From: Actinomycetales bacterium
GTDB taxonomy: Bacteria > Actinomycetota > Actinomycetes > Actinomycetales > Cellulomonadaceae
Assembly (NCBI GenBank): GCA_020444245.1
Contig: JAHLLI010000021.1
Span: 1 to 64,000, forward strand
DNA length: 64,000 nucleotides
Direction of reading: 5' to 3'
Under the pieces are notes generated by a model. That model had not been told where the DNA came from. It searched no databases and saw only the letters and a program-made list of their open reading frames with translations. Positions 4,171-44,025 of the stretch are shown in pieces; positions within the stretch are counted from its first letter, which is position 1, and the number at the start of each line of letters is the position of its first letter. The position numbers were made by a program, and so were the translations under genes.

Positions 4171-4894
4171 GCCCGAGCTGATCGCGCTCCTCGCGCTCGG
4201 CGAGCCCGCCGACGCGGACGCGCGTGCCCACCTCGACCAGTGCCCGGCCTGCGCGGCCGAGCTCGAGGCGCTGTCCACCACCGTCGTCCGCGCGCGCGCC
4301 GCCGGCCCCGGGCTGGCCGAGCTCGTCGAGCCGCCCGTGCGCGTCTGGGACGCCATCGCCGCGGAGCTGGACCTGCCCGCCCACGTGCGTCCGGGCGCTG
4401 CGACCCCCACCGTCGGGACGCAGGGCGCCCGGGAGCCGTCGGCACGCCGTGCCGGCCGGCGCCGCGTGGCGCCCGGCTGGCTCGCCGCCGCGGCCGCCGC
4501 CGGGATCGTGGTCGGCGGGATCGGCGTGGGCTGGTGGGACACGCGCACCCCCGCCCCGACGGTGATCGAGCAGGCGGCGCTGGACGCGTTGCCGGACTGG
4601 CCCGGCGCGTCGGGCACCGCCGTGGTCGAGAGGGCCGCGGACGGCACCCGCGAGCTCGTCGTCACCCTGAACGGCGCCGGGACGGACAGCGGGTTCCACG
4701 AGGTCTGGCTCATCGACACCGAGGTGTCCCGACTGATCAGCCTCGGGATGCTGCACGGGGACCACGGCGTGTTCCCGCTGCCCGACGACCTGGACCTGGC
4801 CGCCTACCCCGTGGTCGACATCTCCGAGGAGCCGTTCGACGGGAACCCGGGGCACTCCGGGGACAGCATCGTCCGGGGCGTCCTCCAGGCATGA
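4157..4894 (+). CDS. RskA-type zinc anti-sigma factor
   Basis: The 245-residue membrane protein starts at a GTG at 4157, overlapping the sigma gene by 14 bases, with GGAGG upstream. The cytoplasmic N-terminus carries the anti-sigma zinc motif His25-x3-Cys29-x2-Cys32 (HLDQCPAC). One transmembrane helix lies near residues 107-127 after an Arg-rich stop. The remainder is an extracytoplasmic RskA-like beta domain ([20 protein letters not shown]). It should sequester the SigK-type factor until regulated proteolysis or redox change releases it. It is the last gene of the operon and converges with the copper-type membrane gene 25 bases away. Confidence 0.88.
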
Positions 4895-17916: not shown

Positions 17917-19404
17917 TCAGCCCCAGACGAGCGCGCGCGCCGGGTCCTCGAGCACCGCTGCCACGTCCGCCAGCAGGCGCGAGCCCAGGCCGCCGTCGAC
18001 CAGCCGGTGGTCGAACGACAGCGCGAGCTGCGTGACGTGCCGGATCTTGACCTTGCCCTTGTGCACCCACGGCTGCTCGCGGATCGCTCCGAACGCCAGG
18101 ATCGCCGACTCGCCGGGGTTGAGGATCGGGGTACCGGTGTCGATGCCGAACACCCCGACGTTGGTGATCGTGATGGTGCCGTCGGACATGTCGGCAGGCG
18201 TGGTGCGGCCGGCGCGGGCCGTCGCGGTGAGGTCCGCGAGCGCGACGGCGAGGTCGTGCAGGCCCAGGCGGTGGGCGTCCTTGATGTTGGGCACGACGAG
18301 GCCGCGGGGGGTCTGCGCCGCGATGCCGAGATTCACGTAGTGCTTGTAGACGATCTCCTGGGTGTCGTCCCGCCAGGAAGCGTTGACCTCGGGGTGCCGG
18401 CGCACCGCGATGAGCAGCGCCTTCATGGCGATCAGCAGCGGCGTGACGCGGACGTCGGCGAACTCGCGGTCCTCGCGCAGCTCGGCGACCAGGCGCATGG
18501 TCCGGGTGACGTCGACGGTGTGGAACACCGACACGTGCGGCGCGGAGAACGCCGACGACACCATCGCCTCGGCGGTGCGCTTGCGCACGGACTTCACCGG
18601 GACGCGGGTGGTGCGACCGTCCGGCGAGACCGTGCCCGACTCCAGCCACGGCTCGTCGTCGTTGGGGTAGGTGGCCAGGGTCTGCGGCTTGACCTCGGTG
18701 GCACGGGCCAGGACGTCCTCGCGGGTCACGATGCCGCCGGGGCCGGTCGGGGTGACGGTGCCGAGGTCGACGTTGAGGTCGCGGGCGAGCTTGCGCACCG
18801 GCGGCTTGGCCAGCACCCGGTGGGCAGCGGCGTCGCGGCTCGCGACGGTGCTCGCGGGAGCGGGCGCGGGTGCAGGTGCAGCGGGCGCAGGTGCAGCGGG
18901 CGCAGGTGCCGGTGCAGCGGGCGCAGGTGCGGCGGGCGTCGCCGACTCAGCCACGGCCGGAGCCGATGCCTCCGCAGACGCCTCCGCCGGGCTCACCGCT
19001 GACGCGGCGCCGGCACCTGCCGCGGTCCGCCGACGCCGTCCGGGCGCCGTCTCGGTCACCCCGTAGCCGACCAGCACCGCACCGCCGCTGCCCGATGGCT
19101 CGTCGCCACCGGCCTCCGCCGCGCCGTCGGTACCGGGGGTCGCCGGCTCCGCGCCGTCCGGGTCGACGTCCACGGTGATGATCGGCGTGCCGACCTCGAC
19201 CGTCACACCCTCCTCGGCCAGCAGCGCGCTGACCACGCCGTCGAACGGGCAGGGCAGCTCGACCAGCGACTTGGCGGTCTCGATCTCGACGATCACCTGG
19301 TTGACGGCCACGCGGTCACCGACGGCCACCCGCCACTCGACGATCTCGGCCTCGGTCAGGCCCTCGCCGGCGTCGGGGAGGCGGAACTGCTCGTACCTGG
19401 GCAC
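17917..19404 (-). CDS. Dihydrolipoamide acyltransferase E2 of a 2-oxo acid dehydrogenase complex
   Basis: The 495-residue E2 has one N-terminal lipoyl domain with lipoylated Lys45 (IETAKSLVE) and a long Ala/Pro/Thr linker. The peripheral subunit-binding domain is about 180-220 ([21 protein letters not shown]). The C-terminal acyltransferase domain ends with the catalytic [10 protein letters not shown]. It transfers acyl groups from E1 to CoA. It is last in the E1alpha-E1beta-E2 operon. The substrate could be pyruvate or branched-chain 2-oxo acids: the same gene set is bkdABC in mycobacteria, and E3 is not encoded here. The ATG is at 19404, 25 bases after the E1beta stop. Confidence 0.92.
18868..18935. 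repeat. 15-bp period array in E2 linker
   Basis: About four copies of a ggtgcagcgggcgca-like unit encode Ala-Pro pentapeptides in the flexible E2 linker. Repeat number is expected to vary between strains by slippage. Confidence 0.7.
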
Positions 19405-35797: not shown

Positions 35798-36478
35798 ATG
35801 ACCCCCGCGAGCGCCATGCCCTGGACCCTGTGGACCGTCCTTCGCCGGACCGGCACCCCGCCGCCGGCCGACCCCGCCCGGGACCGGCAGACCGCCCCGA
35901 GCCTCGCCGCGGCGCTCGGCGAGCTGGGCGACGACGTCCGGCTGCGCGGGCTGTACGACGTGTCCGGCATGCGCGCCGACGCCGACCTCATGGTCTGGCT
36001 CAACGGGGCCTCGGCGGACGGGCTGCAGGCCGCCGCCCGCGCCCTGCGGCGCACCGCAGAGCTCGCACCGCTGGAGGCCCGGTGGGCCGTGATGGGCGTG
36101 CACCGCCCGGCCGAGTTCAGCGCCTCGCACGCGCCCGCCTTCATGCGCGACGCCGAGCCCAAGGCCTGGCTGACCGTCTACCCGTTCGTGCGCTCCTACG
36201 ACTGGTACGTGCTGCCCGAGGAGGAGCGTCGCGAGATGCTCAGCGAGCACGGCCTCAAGGGCCGGGAGTACCCGCAGGTGCTGTCCAACACCGTCGCCGC
36301 GTTCGCGCTGGGCGACTACGAGTGGATCCTCGCGCTCGAGGCCGACGACGTGACCGACCTGGTGGACCTCATGCGCCACCTGCGCGCGACGCAGGCACGG
36401 CGCCACGTCCGCGAGGAGGTGCCGTTCTTCACCGGGCGCCGGATCGAGGTCGGCGAGGTCGCGGAGGTCCTGGCGTGA
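35798..36478 (+). CDS. hemQ: Coproheme decarboxylase (HemQ/ChdC)
   Basis: The 226-residue chlorite-dismutase-family protein converts coproheme to heme b in the coproporphyrin pathway. Visible blocks are RLRGLYDVSGMRADADLMVW, YPFVRSYDWYVLP (with the reactive tyrosine region) and REMLSEHGLKGREYP (proximal-side His). FALGDYEWILALE is the fourth block. There is no signal peptide. The hemH gene overlaps its 3' end by four bases (GTGA). Its presence shows that this organism makes heme through coproporphyrin, not protoporphyrin. Confidence 0.93.
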   Translation: MTPASAMPWTLWTVLRRTGTPPPADPARDRQTAPSLAAALGELGDDVRLRGLYDVSGMRADADLMVWLNGASADGLQAAARALRRTAELAPLEARWAVMGVHRPAEFSASHAPAFMRDAEPKAWLTVYPFVRSYDWYVLPEEERREMLSEHGLKGREYPQVLSNTVAAFALGDYEWILALEADDVTDLVDLMRHLRATQARRHVREEVPFFTGRRIEVGEVAEVLA

Positions 36479-37668
36479 GCACCGTCGCCGGCCTCCCACC
36501 GGCCGACCCCCGGCCGCGCGTCCGGTACGACGCCGTGCTGCTGGTCTCGTTCGGCGGGCCGGAGCGCCAGGACGACGTCCTGCCCTTCCTGCGCAACGTC
36601 ACGCGCGGTCGCGGGATCCCCGACGAGCGGCTGGAGGAGGTCGCGCACCACTACCGGCACTTCGGCGGCGTCAGCCCGATCAACGCCCAGTGCCGGGCGC
36701 TGCGTGCCGCACTGGGTGAGGAGCTGACCCGCCGCGGGCTCGACCTGCCGGTGTACTGGGGCAACCGCAACTGGGACCCGTACCTGGCTGACGCGCTGCG
36801 CGAGGCGCACGCCGCGGGGCACCGCCGGCTGCTCGCCGTGGTGACCAGCGCGTACTCGTCGTACTCCTCGTGCCGGCAGTACCGCGAGGACCTCGCGGCC
36901 GCGCTCGAGTCGACCGGGCTGGCCGGCGAGCTCGAGGTGGACAAGGTGCGCCAGTACTTCGACCACCCGGGGTTCGTCGCCCCGTTCGTCACGGGCACGC
37001 GGGAGGCGGTGCAGGCCGTGCTCGCCGAGCTGGGCGCAGGCGCCCGCGCGAGCGACGTGCACGTGCTGTTCGCGACGCACTCGATCCCGACCCCGACCGC
37101 GCTGGCGTCCGGGCCGCCCGGCGCGGACCTGGGCCCGGAGGGTGCCTACGGTGCGCAGCACCGCGCCGTCGCCGAGGTGGTGATGGCGTCGCTGGCCAGC
37201 GGGGACCTCGGGATCGAGGCGCCGTGGTCGCTGGTGTACCAGTCGCGCAGCGGGAGTCCGCACAGCCCGTGGCTCGAGCCGGACGTGAACGACGCGATCC
37301 GCGAGCTCGTCGACCGGGGGGCCCGCGGCGTGGTGATCGTGCCCCTCGGGTTCGTGTCCGACCACATGGAGGTGCTCTGGGACCTGGACGAGGAGGCCAC
37401 CGAGACCGCACACGAGGCGGGCCTGGCCGTGGCCCGGGTGCCCACGCCGGGTGTCGACCCGGCGTTCGTGGCGGGTCTGGTGGACCTGATCGCCGAGCGC
37501 CACACGAACGACGGCGGGGACGGTGGCGAGGGCGCGTCCGGGAGCCCGATGGAGCGGCCCGCGCTGACGCCGCTCGGCCCGTGGTACGACGTGTGCCGGG
37601 CGGGCTGCTGCGCGAACCCGCGCGGCGAGCGTCCCGCGGTCGCGGGGCTGCCGACGGGCGAGGCGTGA
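36475..37668 (+). CDS. hemH: Coproporphyrin ferrochelatase (CpfC/HemH)
   Basis: The 397-residue enzyme inserts iron into coproporphyrin III. Blocks: LLVSFGGPERQDDVLPFL, FGGVSPINAQ, the catalytic-His segment VLFATHSIPT and VVIVPLGFVSDHMEVLWDLD. Cys residues in SSCRQ and in the C-terminal WYDVCRAGCCANP could hold the [2Fe-2S] cluster reported for some actinobacterial ferrochelatases; this is plausible but unproven here. The Gly/Asp-rich linker (HTNDGGDGGEGASGSP) precedes that tail. GTG 36475 overlaps the hemQ stop. Its TGA begins the 17-bp repeat chain leading to hemC. Confidence 0.93.
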   Translation: MSTVAGLPPADPRPRVRYDAVLLVSFGGPERQDDVLPFLRNVTRGRGIPDERLEEVAHHYRHFGGVSPINAQCRALRAALGEELTRRGLDLPVYWGNRNWDPYLADALREAHAAGHRRLLAVVTSAYSSYSSCRQYREDLAAALESTGLAGELEVDKVRQYFDHPGFVAPFVTGTREAVQAVLAELGAGARASDVHVLFATHSIPTPTALASGPPGADLGPEGAYGAQHRAVAEVVMASLASGDLGIEAPWSLVYQSRSGSPHSPWLEPDVNDAIRELVDRGARGVVIVPLGFVSDHMEVLWDLDEEATETAHEAGLAVARVPTPGVDPAFVAGLVDLIAERHTNDGGDGGEGASGSPMERPALTPLGPWYDVCRAGCCANPRGERPAVAGLPTGEA

Positions 37669-37747
37669 GGACGGGCGAGGCGTGAGGAACGGCACAGCGT
37701 GAGGACGGGCGAGGCGTGAGGAACGGCACAGCGTGAGGATCGGCACG
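37663..37747 (+). repeat. Five 17-bp units bridging hemH stop and hemC start
   Basis: Units GCGTGAGGACGGGCGAG and GCGTGAGGAACGGCACA alternate at 37663, 37680, 37697 and 37714; the fifth (37731-37747, GCGTGAGGATCGGCACG) is the hemC start. Each GTGA is both the stop of the preceding six-codon frame and the next start: hemH stop, then VRTGEA, VRNGTA, VRTGEA, VRNGTA, then hemC. Confidence 0.9.
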
Positions 37748-39529
37748 CGCGGCAGCGAGCTCGCCGTCACCCAGACCGGGATGGTCGCCGACGCGCTCGG
37801 CGACGCGATCGGGCCGGGCGCGCGCGACGCGATCGAGCTGGTCCGGATCCGCACCGACGGCGACCGGCTCACCGGGTCGCTCGCGTCGCTCGGCGGGACC
37901 GGCGTCTTCGTCACCGCGCTGCGCGATGCCCTGCTGTCCGGCGCGTGCGACCTTGCCGTGCACTCGATGAAGGACCTGCCCACCGCACCGCCGGAGGGCC
38001 TGCGGCTGGTCGCGGTCCCCGAGCGGGCCGACCCGCGCGACGCGCTGTGCGCCCGCGCCGGTCTCACCCTGGCGACGCTGCCGCCCGGCGCGCGGGTCGG
38101 CACCGGGTCGCCGCGGCGCGCGGCCCAGCTGCTCGCGGCCCGACCCGACCTGGAGGTCGTGGACCTGCGCGGGAACGTGCCCACCCGGCTCGGCCGGGTG
38201 CCCGGCCACCAGCGTCCCGGGCACGAGGACCCCGGCGACCTGGACGCCGTCGTGCTGGCGATGGCCGGGCTGACCCGGCTCGGCCTGCTCGGCGCGGTGA
38301 CCGAGGCGCTCGACCCGGCGACCGTGCGACCCGCTCCGGCCCAGGGGGCGCTCGCCGTCGAGGCAGCGGGCCCGCTCGACCCCGCAGCGGAGGCGGCGCT
38401 CGCCACGCTCGACCATCGGCCGACCCGGCTCGCGGTGATCGCCGAACGGTCGCTGCTGGCCACGCTCGAGGCCGGCTGCGCGGCGCCGGTCGGGGCGCTG
38501 GGCCGGGTCGAGGGCGACGTGCTGGTCCTGGATGCGGTCGTGTGCGCCACCGACGGATCCCGACGCCTGATCGAGACCGGAAGGGTGACGCTGCCGGGCG
38601 TCACGGAGCGGGCCGACGCGGACGAGGAGGCTGCGCGCGCCCTCGGCAGGCGGGTCGCGACGTCGCTGCTCTCGCTGGGTGCTGCGGACCTGGTCCAGGC
38701 GGCGCACGGCGCGCCGCCGGCGACCCCCTCCGCGACCGGCGCTCTCGCCGGCTGGCGCGTGCTCGTCCCTCGCGGCGGGGAGTGGGCCCAGAAGGTCGCG
38801 GACCTGCTGGCCCCGCACGGCGCGACCACGGTCGCGGTCCCGCTCATCGAGTTCGCCCCACCGCACGACCTCGAGCCGCTCGACGACGCCCTCGACCGGC
38901 TCTCCCTCGGGCGCTACGACTGGCTCGCGATCACCAGCGCCACCACCGTCAGCTCGCTGGCCGGCCGGGTCGCCGCACGCCGGTTGGTGCCCGGCAGCCC
39001 CGACCCGGGCGAGGCGCTCGCCGCGGTGGTCGGCACGACGCGAGTGGCCGCCGTGGGGCCGGCGACCGCCGCCCCGCTGCAACGCTCCGGCATCGACGTG
39101 AGCCTGATCCCGGCCACGCGCTCGGCCGCCGGCCTGGTCGAGGCGTTCCCGCCCGGTCCGGGCCGCGTCCTGGTCCCGCACTCCGACCTCGCCGACGCCA
39201 CCCTGGCCGACGGGCTGCGCGCTCGCGGGCTCGAGGTCGACGAGGTGGTCGCGTACCGCACCGTCGCCGGCCCGCCCGCGGCGCCCCCGGTGCGCGCCGA
39301 GCTCGCCGACGGCCGGATCCGCGCGGTGCTGCTGAGCTCGCCGAGCACCGTGACCCAGCTGCTGGAACTCGTCGGCAGCCCGCCGGCAGGCACGGTGGTC
39401 GCCTGCATCGGCCCGCGCACGACACGCGCCGCCGAGGACGCAGGCCTGACCGTGCACGTCACGCCACCGTCGTCGTCGACGGAGGACCTCGTCGACGCCC
39501 TCGTCCGCTTCGCCCAGGAGAACTCGTGA
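37733..39529 (+). CDS. hemC: Fused porphobilinogen deaminase / uroporphyrinogen III synthase (HemC-HemD)
   Basis: The 598-residue fusion has HemC at residues 1-325 with Asp81 (HSMKDLP), [11 protein letters not shown] and dipyrromethane-binding Cys249 ([12 protein letters not shown]). A short linker ([10 protein letters not shown]) leads to HemD at about 338-598 ([19 protein letters not shown] ... [14 protein letters not shown]). The fusion would channel hydroxymethylbilane directly into ring closure. An extra polar loop ([13 protein letters not shown], 157-169) interrupts HemC. The GTG at 37733 lies in the last unit of the upstream 17-bp repeat, whose GAGGC just before may act as a weak Shine-Dalgarno. 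hemB overlaps its stop (GTGA). Confidence 0.93.
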
Positions 39530-40506
39530 GCCCCGTCGTCCGCCCCCGCCGCCTGCGCACCACGCCCGCGATGCGCCGGCTCGTGGCCGAGACCCGCGTG
39601 CACCCCGCACAGCTCGTGCTGCCGCTGTTCGCCCGTGAGGGCGCGACCGAGCCGGTGCCGATCTCCTCGATGCCGGGCCAGGTGCAGCACACCCGCGACT
39701 CGCTGCGCGCGGCCGTCGTCGAGGCCGCCGAGGCGGGGGTCGGCGGCGTCATGCTCTTCGGGGTGCCGGCGACGCGGGACGCGACCGGCTCGTGCGCGAC
39801 GGACCCCGCCGGCGTCCTCGCCACCGCCGTGCGCGACGTGGTGGCCGAGGTGGGCGACGCGCTCGTCGTGCAGGCCGACCTGTGCCTGGACGAGTTCACC
39901 GACCACGGCCACTGCGGTGTGCTGGCCGCGGACGGCACCGTGGACAACGACGCGACGCTCGTCCGCTACGGCGACATGGCAGTGGTGCTCGCGGAGGCCG
40001 GGGCGCACCTGCTCGGGCTGTCGGGAATGATGGACGGCCAGGTCGCGGCGGTGCGCGGCGCGCTGGACGACGCGGGGCACGCCGACACCGCGCTGCTCGG
40101 GTATGCCGCGAAGTACGCGTCGGCGTTCTACGGGCCGTTCCGCGAGGCCGTGGAGTCGACGCTCGTCGGCGACCGGCGCACGTACCAGCTGGACCTGGCG
40201 AACCGCCGCGAGGGGCTGCGCGAGGCGTTGCTCGACATCGAGGAGGGCGCCGACGTCGTCATGGTCAAGCCGGCGGGCTCGTACCTGGATGTGCTGGCCG
40301 ACGTCGCGGGGACCTCGCCGGTGCCGGTGTGGGCGTACCAGGTGTCCGGCGAGTACGCGATGGTCGCGGCCGCCGCCGCGCACGGCTGGATCGACCGCCG
40401 CGCGGTGGTGACCGAGCAGGTGACCGGGATCGTGCGGGCCGGCGCCGACGCGGTGCTGACGTACTGGGCGACCGAGCTCGCCGGCTGGCTGCGGGAGGCG
40501 ATGTGA
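39526..40506 (+). CDS. hemB: Porphobilinogen synthase (delta-aminolevulinate dehydratase)
   Basis: The 326-residue TIM-barrel enzyme condenses two aminolevulinate molecules. The Schiff-base lysine motif [12 protein letters not shown] and second lysine [15 protein letters not shown] are present. The metal loop reads [14 protein letters not shown]: two of the three zinc cysteines are kept and the middle one is Asp, the usual actinobacterial version. GTG 39526 overlaps the hemCD stop by four bases, and hemL overlaps its own stop in the same way. Confidence 0.95.
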
Positions 40507-41924
40507 GCCACGCACCCACCGTGCCGACGACCAACCATGACGCCTTCGTCCGCGCGGCGGCGGCGATGCCCGGGGGCGTGAGCTCGCCGGTGCGCGCCTA
40601 CGGTTCGGTCGGCGGCGACCCGCGGTTCCTCGCGAGCGCGCACGGGCCGTACGTCATCGACGTCGAGGGTCGGGAGTACGTGGATCTCGTCGCGTCCTGG
40701 GGACCGGCGATCCTGGGTCACGCGCACCCCGAGGTGGTCGCGGCGGTGCAGGAGGCCGCCGCGCGGGGGCTGTCGTTCGGGGCGCCGACGCTCGCCGAGG
40801 TCGAGCTGGCCGAGGAGATCGCGCGGCGGGTGCCGTTCGTCGAGCGGCTCCGGCTGGTGTCGACCGGCACCGAGGCGACCATGACCGCGGTGCGGCTGGC
40901 CCGCGGGATCACCGGCCGCCCGCTCGTGGTGAAGTTCGCCGGGTGCTACCACGGCCACTCCGACGGCCTGCTGGCCGCGGCCGGGTCGGGCGTGGCGACG
41001 GCCGGGCTGCCGGGGTCGGCGGGGGTCACCGAGGCGACCGCGGCGGAGACCCTGGTGCTGCCGTACAACGACCTCGCCGCGGTGCGCGCCGCCTTCACGG
41101 CGCACGGCCACCGGATCGCCGCGGTGATCACCGAGGCACAGCCCGCGAACATGGGCGTGGTGCCGTCGCTGGTGGACTTCGATCCCGAGCTGCGGAGGAT
41201 CACCGCCGAGCACGGCGCACTGCTGATCTGGGACGAGGTGCTGACCGGGTTCCGGGTGGGTCCCGCGGGGTGGTGGGGGATCGAGGCCGTCGACGGAGGG
41301 CCCCGGCCCGGCGGTGGGCTCGCGGTCGGGCCTGGGGCAACCGCCGGGCTGAGCACCGGGTCGGCGGGTGCGGACTGGGACTGGGCACCGGATCTCGTGA
41401 CGTTCGGCAAGGTGGTCGGCGGCGGGTTGCCCGTCGCTGCGGTCGGGGGGCCCGCTGCGATGATGGACCGCCTGGCACCGCTCGGCCCCGTGTACCAGGC
41501 AGGCACACTGTCCGGGAACCCCGTCGCGGTGGCGGCCGGCCTCGCGACGCTCCGCCTGGCGGACGCCGGCGTGTACCAGCGGCTCGACGCGGTCGCCGAC
41601 GTGCTGCGCCGCGAGGTCCACGAGGCATTGGACCGAGTGGGCGTGCCCCATCGGGTCCAGCACGTCGGCAACCTGTTCTCGGTGTTCTTCGGTGAGCGCG
41701 CTGCGACCGCCGGCGTGCACGACTACGCCGCCGCCAAGCTCCAGGACACCGCCGCCTACACGCGGTTCTTCCACGCGATGCTCGACGCCGGCGTCGCGCT
41801 GCCGCCGTCAGCGTTCGAGGCCTGGTTCGTGACCGCCGCGCACGACGACCACGCCGTGGCGCGCATCGTCGAGGCACTCCCCGCCGCGGCCCGCGCGGCC
41901 GACACTGCAGGCGCCACGGAGTAG
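40503..41924 (+). CDS. hemL: Glutamate-1-semialdehyde 2,1-aminomutase
   Basis: The 473-residue PLP aminomutase forms 5-aminolevulinate from glutamate-1-semialdehyde. [11 protein letters not shown], the cofactor Asp in [13 protein letters not shown] and PLP Lys303 in [11 protein letters not shown] are visible. Residues about 264-294 are a Gly/Ala-rich insert ([16 protein letters not shown] then [11 protein letters not shown]) absent from typical family members, placed just before the cofactor lysine. It is the last gene of the plus-strand heme operon, followed by a 22-bp palindrome. Confidence 0.93.
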
Positions 41925-41966: not shown

Positions 41967-42032
41967 GCTGCACCGCGTCCCGCACACCACGCCGCGCACC
42001 ACCGCACCACCGGGCCACCGGCCACCGGCCAC

Positions 42033-42100
42033 ACCCAACCCCAGGCACCACGGGACCACCGAGCGCACCCAACTCCCAGGCACCACGGGGCCACCGAACA
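42033..42100. repeat. 34-bp A/C-rich direct repeat
   Basis: Two copies with 34-base period (acccaac-cccaggcaccacggg-ccaccga core, starting 42033 and 42067) lie in a purine/pyrimidine-skewed stretch between hemL and the HNH gene. The rest of 41967-42144 shows only short CCACCGG-type repeats and no gene. Confidence 0.65.
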
Positions 42101-42144
42101 CACCTACCACCTCGCAACCCGAGGGCCGCGCCGCGCCTACCGCC

Positions 42145-43566
42145 CTACGCGAACCCGCCGTCGCCGCGCGCCCGCGGATCGGGCCGGGGCACCGGCAGCA
42201 GCGGCTCGAGACTGACGACGTGGACCCGCCCGAGCGGGGAACGCCACAGCGTCGCGCCGCTGATCGGATCGCGGCTGACGTACCAGCCACCGTGCGTCTT
42301 GAGGCGGTGGTGGTGGCGACAGAGCGCCTGGAGGTTCTGCTCCACGGTCTGCCACCGTGCTGGGCGGTCGGGGTCGAACGGGTCCACGTGGTCGATGTCG
42401 CAGCGGTGGGCCGGGACACGGCACCCCGGGAACCGGCAGGTCCGATCGCGATCGACCACCGCGCGGGCCAGCTCCGCCGACGGCCGGTACCCGTCGGTCC
42501 CGGCCGCGTCGACCGCCGGCACGCCGTCCTCGTCGACCCGCACGACGCCCTGCGTCGCCCCGTCGAGCAGGTGCGCGACCGCGGCGAGGGGCACCGGGCC
42601 GTACCCCGCGAGGTGTGCCACGCTCCCGACGCCCGAGGGGTCGGTCCCGCCCGCGAGGGCCGAGGACGGAGACCCCGGAAGCGGCCGCGTCCCCGTACCG
42701 CCAGCGCCCACCCCGGCCACCGTGACGAGCAGGTGCGGCCGCCGGTGCTGGCGCACGGGCAGCGGCGTCCCGTCCGGGCCCAACCCGGAGTCGAGCACTC
42801 GACGCGCCATCGCCGTCAGCGCGTCGGCGCGCCGCTCGTCGGCGGTGCGCTCGTCACCCGGCTCGCGCACCGCGGTGGCGCCGTCGAGCGCGCTCATCAC
42901 CGTGGCGGCATCGGCGGCGGGTAGCAGGGCGTGGATCCAGGCCATCGCGTCGGGCGCCGGCACCATCCGCACGCAGCGCTCGCGGCGGGCCTCGGCGTGC
43001 CTGGCCGCTGCGGCCTCGGAGTCCAGCGCGAGCTCGGCAGCGCGCACGTCCGCGCGCAGCTGCGGGACCGTCCGCTCGTCGGCCGTGTCCAGGACGCGCG
43101 CGATCACCGCATCGGCCAGCGGGAACGGCAGGTGCTCGGTGTCGTGCAGGAGCACCTCGACCTTGCGCGCCGACACCGACCCCTCGTCGAGCGCGGCGGC
43201 GAGCCGCGGGTGACGCTGCAGCCCGGCTGCGAGCTCGACCTTGCGCTCCGCGGCCCGCCGCGTGATGCCGAGCCGGGTCGCGACCTCGTCCGGCACCAGA
43301 TCCACATCCGCACCGCGGGTCGCGCGGGCGCCGAGCTCGGCGACCCAGTGCGCCTGCTGGCGCGCCACCCACGCGCCCACCCGCTCCCAGCCGGCGACGC
43401 CCTCGACCACGCCCTCGCGGTCCACCGCCGCGGGGTCCAGCCCGGCCAGCCGGGTCACGAGCCCGACCGAAGCAGGCCGCATCTCGAGATCGGCAGCGAC
43501 CGGGTGGCGCTCGACCCAGGTCCAGGGCACGCTCGGCCCCGCGGGCTGCGCAGCGGCCACGGTCAC
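42145..43566 (-). CDS. DUF222/HNH endonuclease (13E12-repeat family)
   Basis: The 473-residue protein has an N-terminal DUF222 helical domain (about 40-260) and a C-terminal HNH domain with a zinc-binding Cys pair (CRFPGC), the catalytic CDIDHVDPF and NLQALCRHHHRLKTHGGW. This family is multi-copy in many actinobacteria and is reported as part of the mycobacterial DNA-damage response. The GTG at 43566 has GGGGGA upstream. A LexA-like box lies 16-31 bases upstream. DNA cleavage is predicted; the target and whether the gene is mobile are unknown. Confidence 0.88.
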   Translation of the reverse strand: MTVAAAQPAGPSVPWTWVERHPVAADLEMRPASVGLVTRLAGLDPAAVDREGVVEGVAGWERVGAWVARQQAHWVAELGARATRGADVDLVPDEVATRLGITRRAAERKVELAAGLQRHPRLAAALDEGSVSARKVEVLLHDTEHLPFPLADAVIARVLDTADERTVPQLRADVRAAELALDSEAAAARHAEARRERCVRMVPAPDAMAWIHALLPAADAATVMSALDGATAVREPGDERTADERRADALTAMARRVLDSGLGPDGTPLPVRQHRRPHLLVTVAGVGAGGTGTRPLPGSPSSALAGGTDPSGVGSVAHLAGYGPVPLAAVAHLLDGATQGVVRVDEDGVPAVDAAGTDGYRPSAELARAVVDRDRTCRFPGCRVPAHRCDIDHVDPFDPDRPARWQTVEQNLQALCRHHHRLKTHGGWYVSRDPISGATLWRSPLGRVHVVSLEPLLPVPRPDPRARGDGGFA

Positions 43567-43581
43567 CAGATCCCCCTGTCC

Positions 43582-43597
43582 TCGAACACCTGTACGA
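43582..43597 (-). promoter_or_regulatory. LexA/SOS-box-like element
   Basis: TCGAAC-acct-GTACGA matches the actinobacterial LexA consensus TCGAAC-N4-GTTCGA at 11 of 12 defined bases. It is centred about 23 bases upstream of the HNH gene start and 85 bases from the divergent small membrane gene. Confidence 0.55.
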
Positions 43598-43674
43598 TAT
43601 CGCGAGGGTCCGACACCCGTCGGCACGGCAGCCGACGCGATACCGGGCCAGGACGGACACACCTGGGGGCAACC

Positions 43675-43935
43675 GTGTTCCTGCTCGTAACGATCCTCGG
43701 CACCGTCCTGGGCATCGTCGCCGCGGACCGGGTCAACCAGCGCTTCGGCCCGCACGACCCGCGCCGCTGGTGGCTGCTCTTGCCGGTCTGGCTGACCTAC
43801 GGCGTGGTGCTGCTCACCGCGGACACGCGAGAGGCGTGGCCGCAGGCAGTCGGGCCATTCGCGTTCGCATCCCTCTTCATGACCGCGGTGGACCTCCTCG
43901 GCGCGCTCCGACGCCGGCGCCACGCCGAGCCGTAG
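43675..43935 (+). CDS. Small two- or three-helix membrane protein
   Basis: The 86-residue protein has hydrophobic segments at about 2-17 (FLLVTILGTVLGIVAA), 33-47 (LLLPVWLTYGVVLLT) and 58-75 (GPFAFASLFMTAVDLLGA), ending in RRRRHAEP. The family is not recognised. The GTG at 43675 has GGGGG six bases upstream. It is divergent from the HNH gene and converges with the GH6 gene. The LexA-like box between the divergent pair could in principle affect it too. Confidence 0.65.
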   Translation: MFLLVTILGTVLGIVAADRVNQRFGPHDPRRWWLLLPVWLTYGVVLLTADTREAWPQAVGPFAFASLFMTAVDLLGALRRRRHAEP

Positions 43936-44025
43936 CCGGAACCGCACCCGCCGTCGCCAATCCCCCAGATCGCGCAGCGACACGCCCAGTCACCCATCCG
44001 CGCGCAGCCGCCCGCCCATCCGCGA

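Follow-up and report, generated by a model that had tools for sequence, protein, structure and literature searches.

Four overlapping minicistrons between hemH and hemC in an Actinotalea genome: a probable tandem duplication of the gene junction

In an Actinotalea genome (GenBank assembly GCA_020444245.1, contig JAHLLI010000021.1), the junction between hemH, which encodes ferrochelatase, and a hemC-hemD fusion gene is filled by a chain of very short reading frames. Within the stretch analysed, the first 64,000 nucleotides of the contig on the forward strand and hereafter called the window, four tandem 17-bp units in the order A-B-A-B occupy positions 37665-37732, immediately before the hemC GTG at 37733. 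The units are minicistrons of six codons, all beginning with GTG, and the TGA of each overlaps the next GTG as GTGA, a -4 overlap. The hemH stop (TGA, 37666-37668) overlaps the first GTG in the same manner, and the five GTGA overlaps in series carry the -4 path into the hemC frame without a break. The array is best explained by tandem duplication on the spot, across an older stop-start overlap between hemH and hemC. Its likeliest mode of action, which we put forward with modest confidence, would be stepwise termination and reinitiation along the chain.

Unit A reads GTGAGGACGGGCGAGGC and unit B reads GTGAGGAACGGCACAGC. On the plus strand, unit 1 (A, 37665-37681) encodes VRTGEA* and has its stop at 37683-37685, while unit 2 (B, 37682-37698) encodes VRNGTA* and has its stop at 37700-37702. 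Unit 3 (A, 37699-37715) is identical to unit 1 and again gives VRTGEA*, stopping at 37717-37719; unit 4 (B, 37716-37732) is identical to unit 2, again gives VRNGTA*, and stops at 37734-37736, inside codons 1-2 of hemC. The minicistron GTG starts are thus at 37665, 37682, 37699 and 37716, and all five starts, that of hemC included, read GTGAGG. The two A units agree at 17/17 positions, as do the two B units, and A agrees with B at 12/17. Tandem Repeats Finder reports the array with a period of 34, 2.3 copies, a 100% match and a score of 154, the highest of 113 rows for the window. An initial annotation of this DNA had described four overlapping six-codon GTG minicistrons in 17-bp units leading from hemH to hemC, and the coordinates, frames and GTGA overlaps bear this description out.

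The same annotation saw in the units copies of the 5' end of hemC. This holds for the B units, which match the head of hemC at 13/17 positions, and fails for the A units, which match it at 11/17 and whose final 11 nt equal the 3' end of hemH (37654-37664, plus strand), the likely donor of A. The repeat also encodes TGEA, the terminal residues of HemH. We infer an ancestral direct overlap of hemH and hemC, the usual link in the order (mostly at -4, NTGA); duplications spanning the GTGA would have copied the end of hemH into A and the beginning of hemC into B, after which this pair of units would have doubled. Since 17 is 2 mod 3, each unit retains the -4 overlap, and any duplication across GTGA with a period of 2 mod 3 chains automatically unless a stop comes earlier. 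Selection, if any, would have acted on keeping the path rather than on the peptides.

When the 4.41-Mb genome is searched with 94 nt spanning the array, a single match is obtained (E <= 0.001); lone 17-bp units are undetectable in such a search. Loose matches to the unit number 20 in the window, 15 of them outside the array, with 11.4 expected in all. A dispersed repeat is ruled out for the whole array by its single match. Repeats often bind proteins, and on the strength of this general tendency the array might be an element acting at the DNA or RNA level, as a protein site, a promoter or a structured leader. We give this account next to no credence: besides the single genomic match, consensus scanning found no sigma-70-like promoter or terminator at the array, although the scan did not cover other promoter types, and array-bearing stretches fold no better than their shuffles (z +0.04 to +1.95).

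How far such a chain is to be expected by chance was gauged on 1.1 Mb of the same genome. In 20 Markov redraws of this sample, chains of four minicistrons (at most 12 codons each) average 0.2 per set, and equal-step chains of three or four do not occur in any of the 20. The real sample contains a second four-step chain, with unequal steps (locus L094), and four steps alone are therefore not extraordinary. Among junctions between coding-like open reading frames (ORFs) in this sample, 214 are direct, 24 pass through one minicistron and two through two, and a passage through four occurs only in the window; these ORFs were picked by length and codon-position GC content without a gene caller. Tandem duplication scores of at least 14 are found at 3/1560 coding-like stops of this sample besides the window, and scores of at least 6 at 17/1560, not all of these background stops necessarily belonging to real genes; among the 14 Actinotalea hemH-hemC junctions other than that of the window, the figures are 1/14 and 2/14. 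The comparison, which is post hoc, is suggestive of the hemH-hemC junction being a hot spot for duplication. Elsewhere in the genome (locus L127, contig C6, minus strand near 4612), an 18-bp tandem duplication lies across an ATGA and is followed by a 20-codon ORF; by eye, it appears to stand at the start of an hspR-like gene.

The 14 junctions come from a sample of 19 Actinotalea genomes, one per species, of which 15 gave a readable hemH-hemC junction, the window among them; the loci fetched from the other four (G003, G005, G011 and G015) held none. The array is absent from all 14. At the hemH stop, NTGA is present in 11 of the 15, and in each of these, -4 steps lead into the hemC frame: directly in nine, through its four minicistrons in the window, and through two unrelated ones in Actinotalea subterranea (G018). 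In a tree of HemC, the window forms a clade with Actinotalea lenta (G006) and Actinotalea sp. M2MS4P-6 (G016) at 100/100, and A. subterranea falls elsewhere; the two relay species come together in 0% of 200 bootstrap trees. The A. lenta junction is a direct ATGA. That of M2MS4P-6 (L004 / L032) has an ATGA and a junction duplication of its own, with spacings of 18 and 21 bp and an in-frame N-terminal extension of HemC. Homology between this duplication and the window array was considered and set aside, the units being unlike in sequence and length, and the two are taken as independent. A further genome (G004) carries a 15-bp duplication around the hemH stop.

The A. subterranea relay consists of two non-repeated minicistrons, of 6 and 21 codons, joined by -4 overlaps (L008, G018:C22 near 463560; also L034). 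On the sequences, it is independent of the window array. The chance of such a relay is 6% given its own composition, and 1% for independent, identically distributed letters at 74% GC.

Beyond the genus, a C-terminal motif of hemH was sought within 900 nt upstream of hemC and found in 0/25 loci of the family, read in both orientations (one of which offered only 260 nt). In the order, the hemH C-terminus was found in 146/396 genomes, and 120 of the 146 regions were taken, mostly by rank rather than at random; a hemC beyond about 600 nt would escape this survey. Within these limits hemC lies next to hemH in 62/120 regions, and 58/120 show none. The genes overlap directly at 58 of the 62 junctions (54 at -4, three at -1 and one, L202, at -8) and do not overlap at the other four. 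At one locus of the order (L204, G417), where hemH and hemC overlap as GTGA, 18 bp near the hemH stop nearly duplicate the 5' end of hemC (15/18), in frame.

In the window the hemC start lies at +64 nt from the hemH stop, and 37733 is the sole in-frame ATG, GTG or TTG between that stop and the conserved HemC N-terminus. Therefore hemC would be translated from an independent start, by scanning, or through the chain. We favour the chain because direct overlap is common, because the Shine-Dalgarno (SD)-like signal of hemC is weak, because a second relay exists in A. subterranea, and because +64 nt exceeds the reach seen in tests on native genes. In the parts of PMC10666635 drawn on here, a gap of about 20 nt almost abolishes coupling in such tests, a distance of +38 nt lowers it by 80-100% in E. 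coli, and the final 15 nt of the upstream gene are enough for coupling. The best SD-like site of hemC (-6.0 kcal/mol) ends 17 nt upstream and is both weak and far; those of hemH and hemB are stronger (-10.2 and -7.4 kcal/mol) and closer. SD-like sites are better placed before the GTGs of units 2 and 4 (-7.8 kcal/mol, ending 6 nt upstream), in keeping with restarts inside the array. A ribosome ending hemH would restart at the overlapping GTG, make six residues, and do so for four rounds before entering hemC. Coupling of HemCD to HemH would be retained, probably with some loss of ribosomes per step, in which case the array should lower HemCD relative to a direct overlap. Stepwise termination and restart, as first suggested in the initial annotation, is thereby upheld as the likeliest reading, though by no means a secure one.

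Several points weigh against it. The annotation was right that, 17 not being a multiple of 3, each unit shifts the frame and so sets each stop on the next start, but a period of 2 mod 3 arises in one of three periods by chance. In the remaining 4 of the 15 Actinotalea junctions, the hemH stop is CTGA and hemC starts at least 32 nt downstream with no overlap; therefore the coupling can be lost. No minicistron relay was seen at any of the 62 hemH-hemC junctions of the order, and the A. subterranea relay, given its chance of 1-6%, is no more than suggestive. The second codon of the minicistrons is AGG, which is rare locally (6/232 arginine codons). The sites before units 2 and 4, being better than that of hemC, could equally create decoys. 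Finally, PMC10666635 also cites a longer coupling reach, across a 73-nt gap (Yamamoto) and across 150-850 nt (Levin-Karp).

These points leave some room for a neutral origin, in which slippage merely lengthened the junction, hemC starts by itself from a weak SD-like GAGGA 10 nt upstream, and the chain is an unused by-product of the period of 17. We regard this as possible, though not probable. The HemH and HemC proteins are intact whatever the number of units, strong tandem duplications occur at other coding-like stops (the 3/1560 above), the four non-overlapping relatives manage without an overlap, and the hemC SD-like energy is within the range of -3.1 to -6.3 kcal/mol found in nine relatives for the start located at the hemH stop. 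Set against this are the 17-nt distance of the best hemC site, compared with the stronger and closer sites of hemH and hemB, and the rule of overlap in the order (58/62).

Alternatively, ribosomes that have finished hemH might slide or scan over the array and pick among the five identical GTGAGG starts, of which only the last gives HemC, so that the units lower HemC. The two decoys with SD-like sites better than that of hemC would suit such a process, as would the use of the start nearest to the stop, reported in the portion consulted of a review, and the 73-nt reach just mentioned. The native-gene tests, as presented in the same parts of PMC10666635, indicate that scanning is rare if it occurs at all, and we consider the proposal improbable here. 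Whether a post-termination ribosome is confined to restarting in place or also scans onward is disputed between the accounts given there and in the review. The present junction, in which five -4 steps bridge the 64 nt between the hemH stop and hemC, could help to tell local reinitiation, scanning and independent starts apart.

Of the known systems, mycobacterial interspersed repetitive units (MIRUs), which occur at many loci per genome, come closest to the array. The sections of PMC12548453 available to us describe the MIRU as a repeat whose small ORF is coupled at -4 spacing to the gene that follows, repetitive and apparently mobile, in many mycobacteria. The array likewise presents a small ORF at -4 spacing, read in our case from sequence only. 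At senX3-regX3, an excerpt of PMC4213456 reports three 77-bp units in one strain and two 77-bp units plus one of 53 bp in another, with promoter activity in the region. As there, the array forms a run between two co-oriented genes, and by our own arithmetic 77 and 53 are both 2 mod 3, as is 17. However, the array (queried whole) has one match in its genome whereas MIRUs are a dispersed family; its unit is 17 bp rather than 77 or 53; it is built from the ends of its two neighbours, hemH and hemC; and there is no consensus promoter at it. The array suggests how a MIRU-like arrangement could originate within a gene junction, with no mobile element involved. Each of its steps is a GTGA start-stop overlap, as in -4 NTGA termination-reinitiation, but the cases described in the source passages are single steps between two genes and the array has five in a row. 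The mg2 ORF of axe-txe, from what PMC8708949 gives in part, is likewise a tiny cis-acting ORF before a gene and sensitive to distance; it has two codons, however, lies 15 nt from the next start and has no overlap chain. Among the papers listed in searches of open-licence PubMed Central, there was no account of the array, of minicistrons chained in series within a heme operon, or of hemH-hemC coupling in Actinotalea. The initial annotation knew of no described example in heme operons; the related -4 arrangement of MIRUs is described for mycobacterial genes in the sections cited.

The make-up of the senX3-regX3 run differs between the two strains, and a 100% identical 34-bp repeat can slip. The array might in this light be a contingency locus, in which slippage varies the unit number between cells or strains and so sets the HemCD level, as the initial annotation proposed. 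We think this very unlikely. The array is absent from the other Actinotalea junctions read and unit number changes neither protein, so the idea of a slippage-prone switch finds no support. A broader proposal, which we also doubt, is that duplication of -4 junctions is a recurrent route to a graded coupler. The Actinotalea hemH-hemC junction would then have become multi-step more than once (four minicistrons here, two in A. subterranea), the HemCD:HemH ratio would be set by minicistron number, and duplications with a period of 1 mod 3, which break the path, would be lost.

The junction belongs to a run of heme genes in which -4 overlaps recur: hemE/hemY (TTGA), and hemQ/hemH, hemC/hemB and hemB/hemL (all GTGA). 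The GTG start of hemH (36475-37668, plus strand; NCBIfam ferrochelatase, 467 bits, cut-off 408) lies on the hemQ stop. The hemC-hemD fusion (37733-39529, plus strand) matches NCBIfam hemC at 280 bits (cut-off 164), and is followed on the same strand by hemB (39526-40506) and hemL (40503-41924), both identified by NCBIfam. Curated NCBIfam cut-offs are exceeded by hemE, hemQ, hemH, hemC, hemB and hemL, the hemE stretch having been begun at a guessed position rather than at a start codon; the protoporphyrinogen oxidase and the hemD half score below theirs. Two other tandem repeats in the window were recorded by Tandem Repeats Finder. One, of 35 bp in 2.6 copies (42015-42104), lies 3' of hemL, before the end of a minus-strand ORF (42145-43983). 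The other, of 36 bp in 2.2 copies with a 93% match (18859-18938), has the second-highest score in the window.
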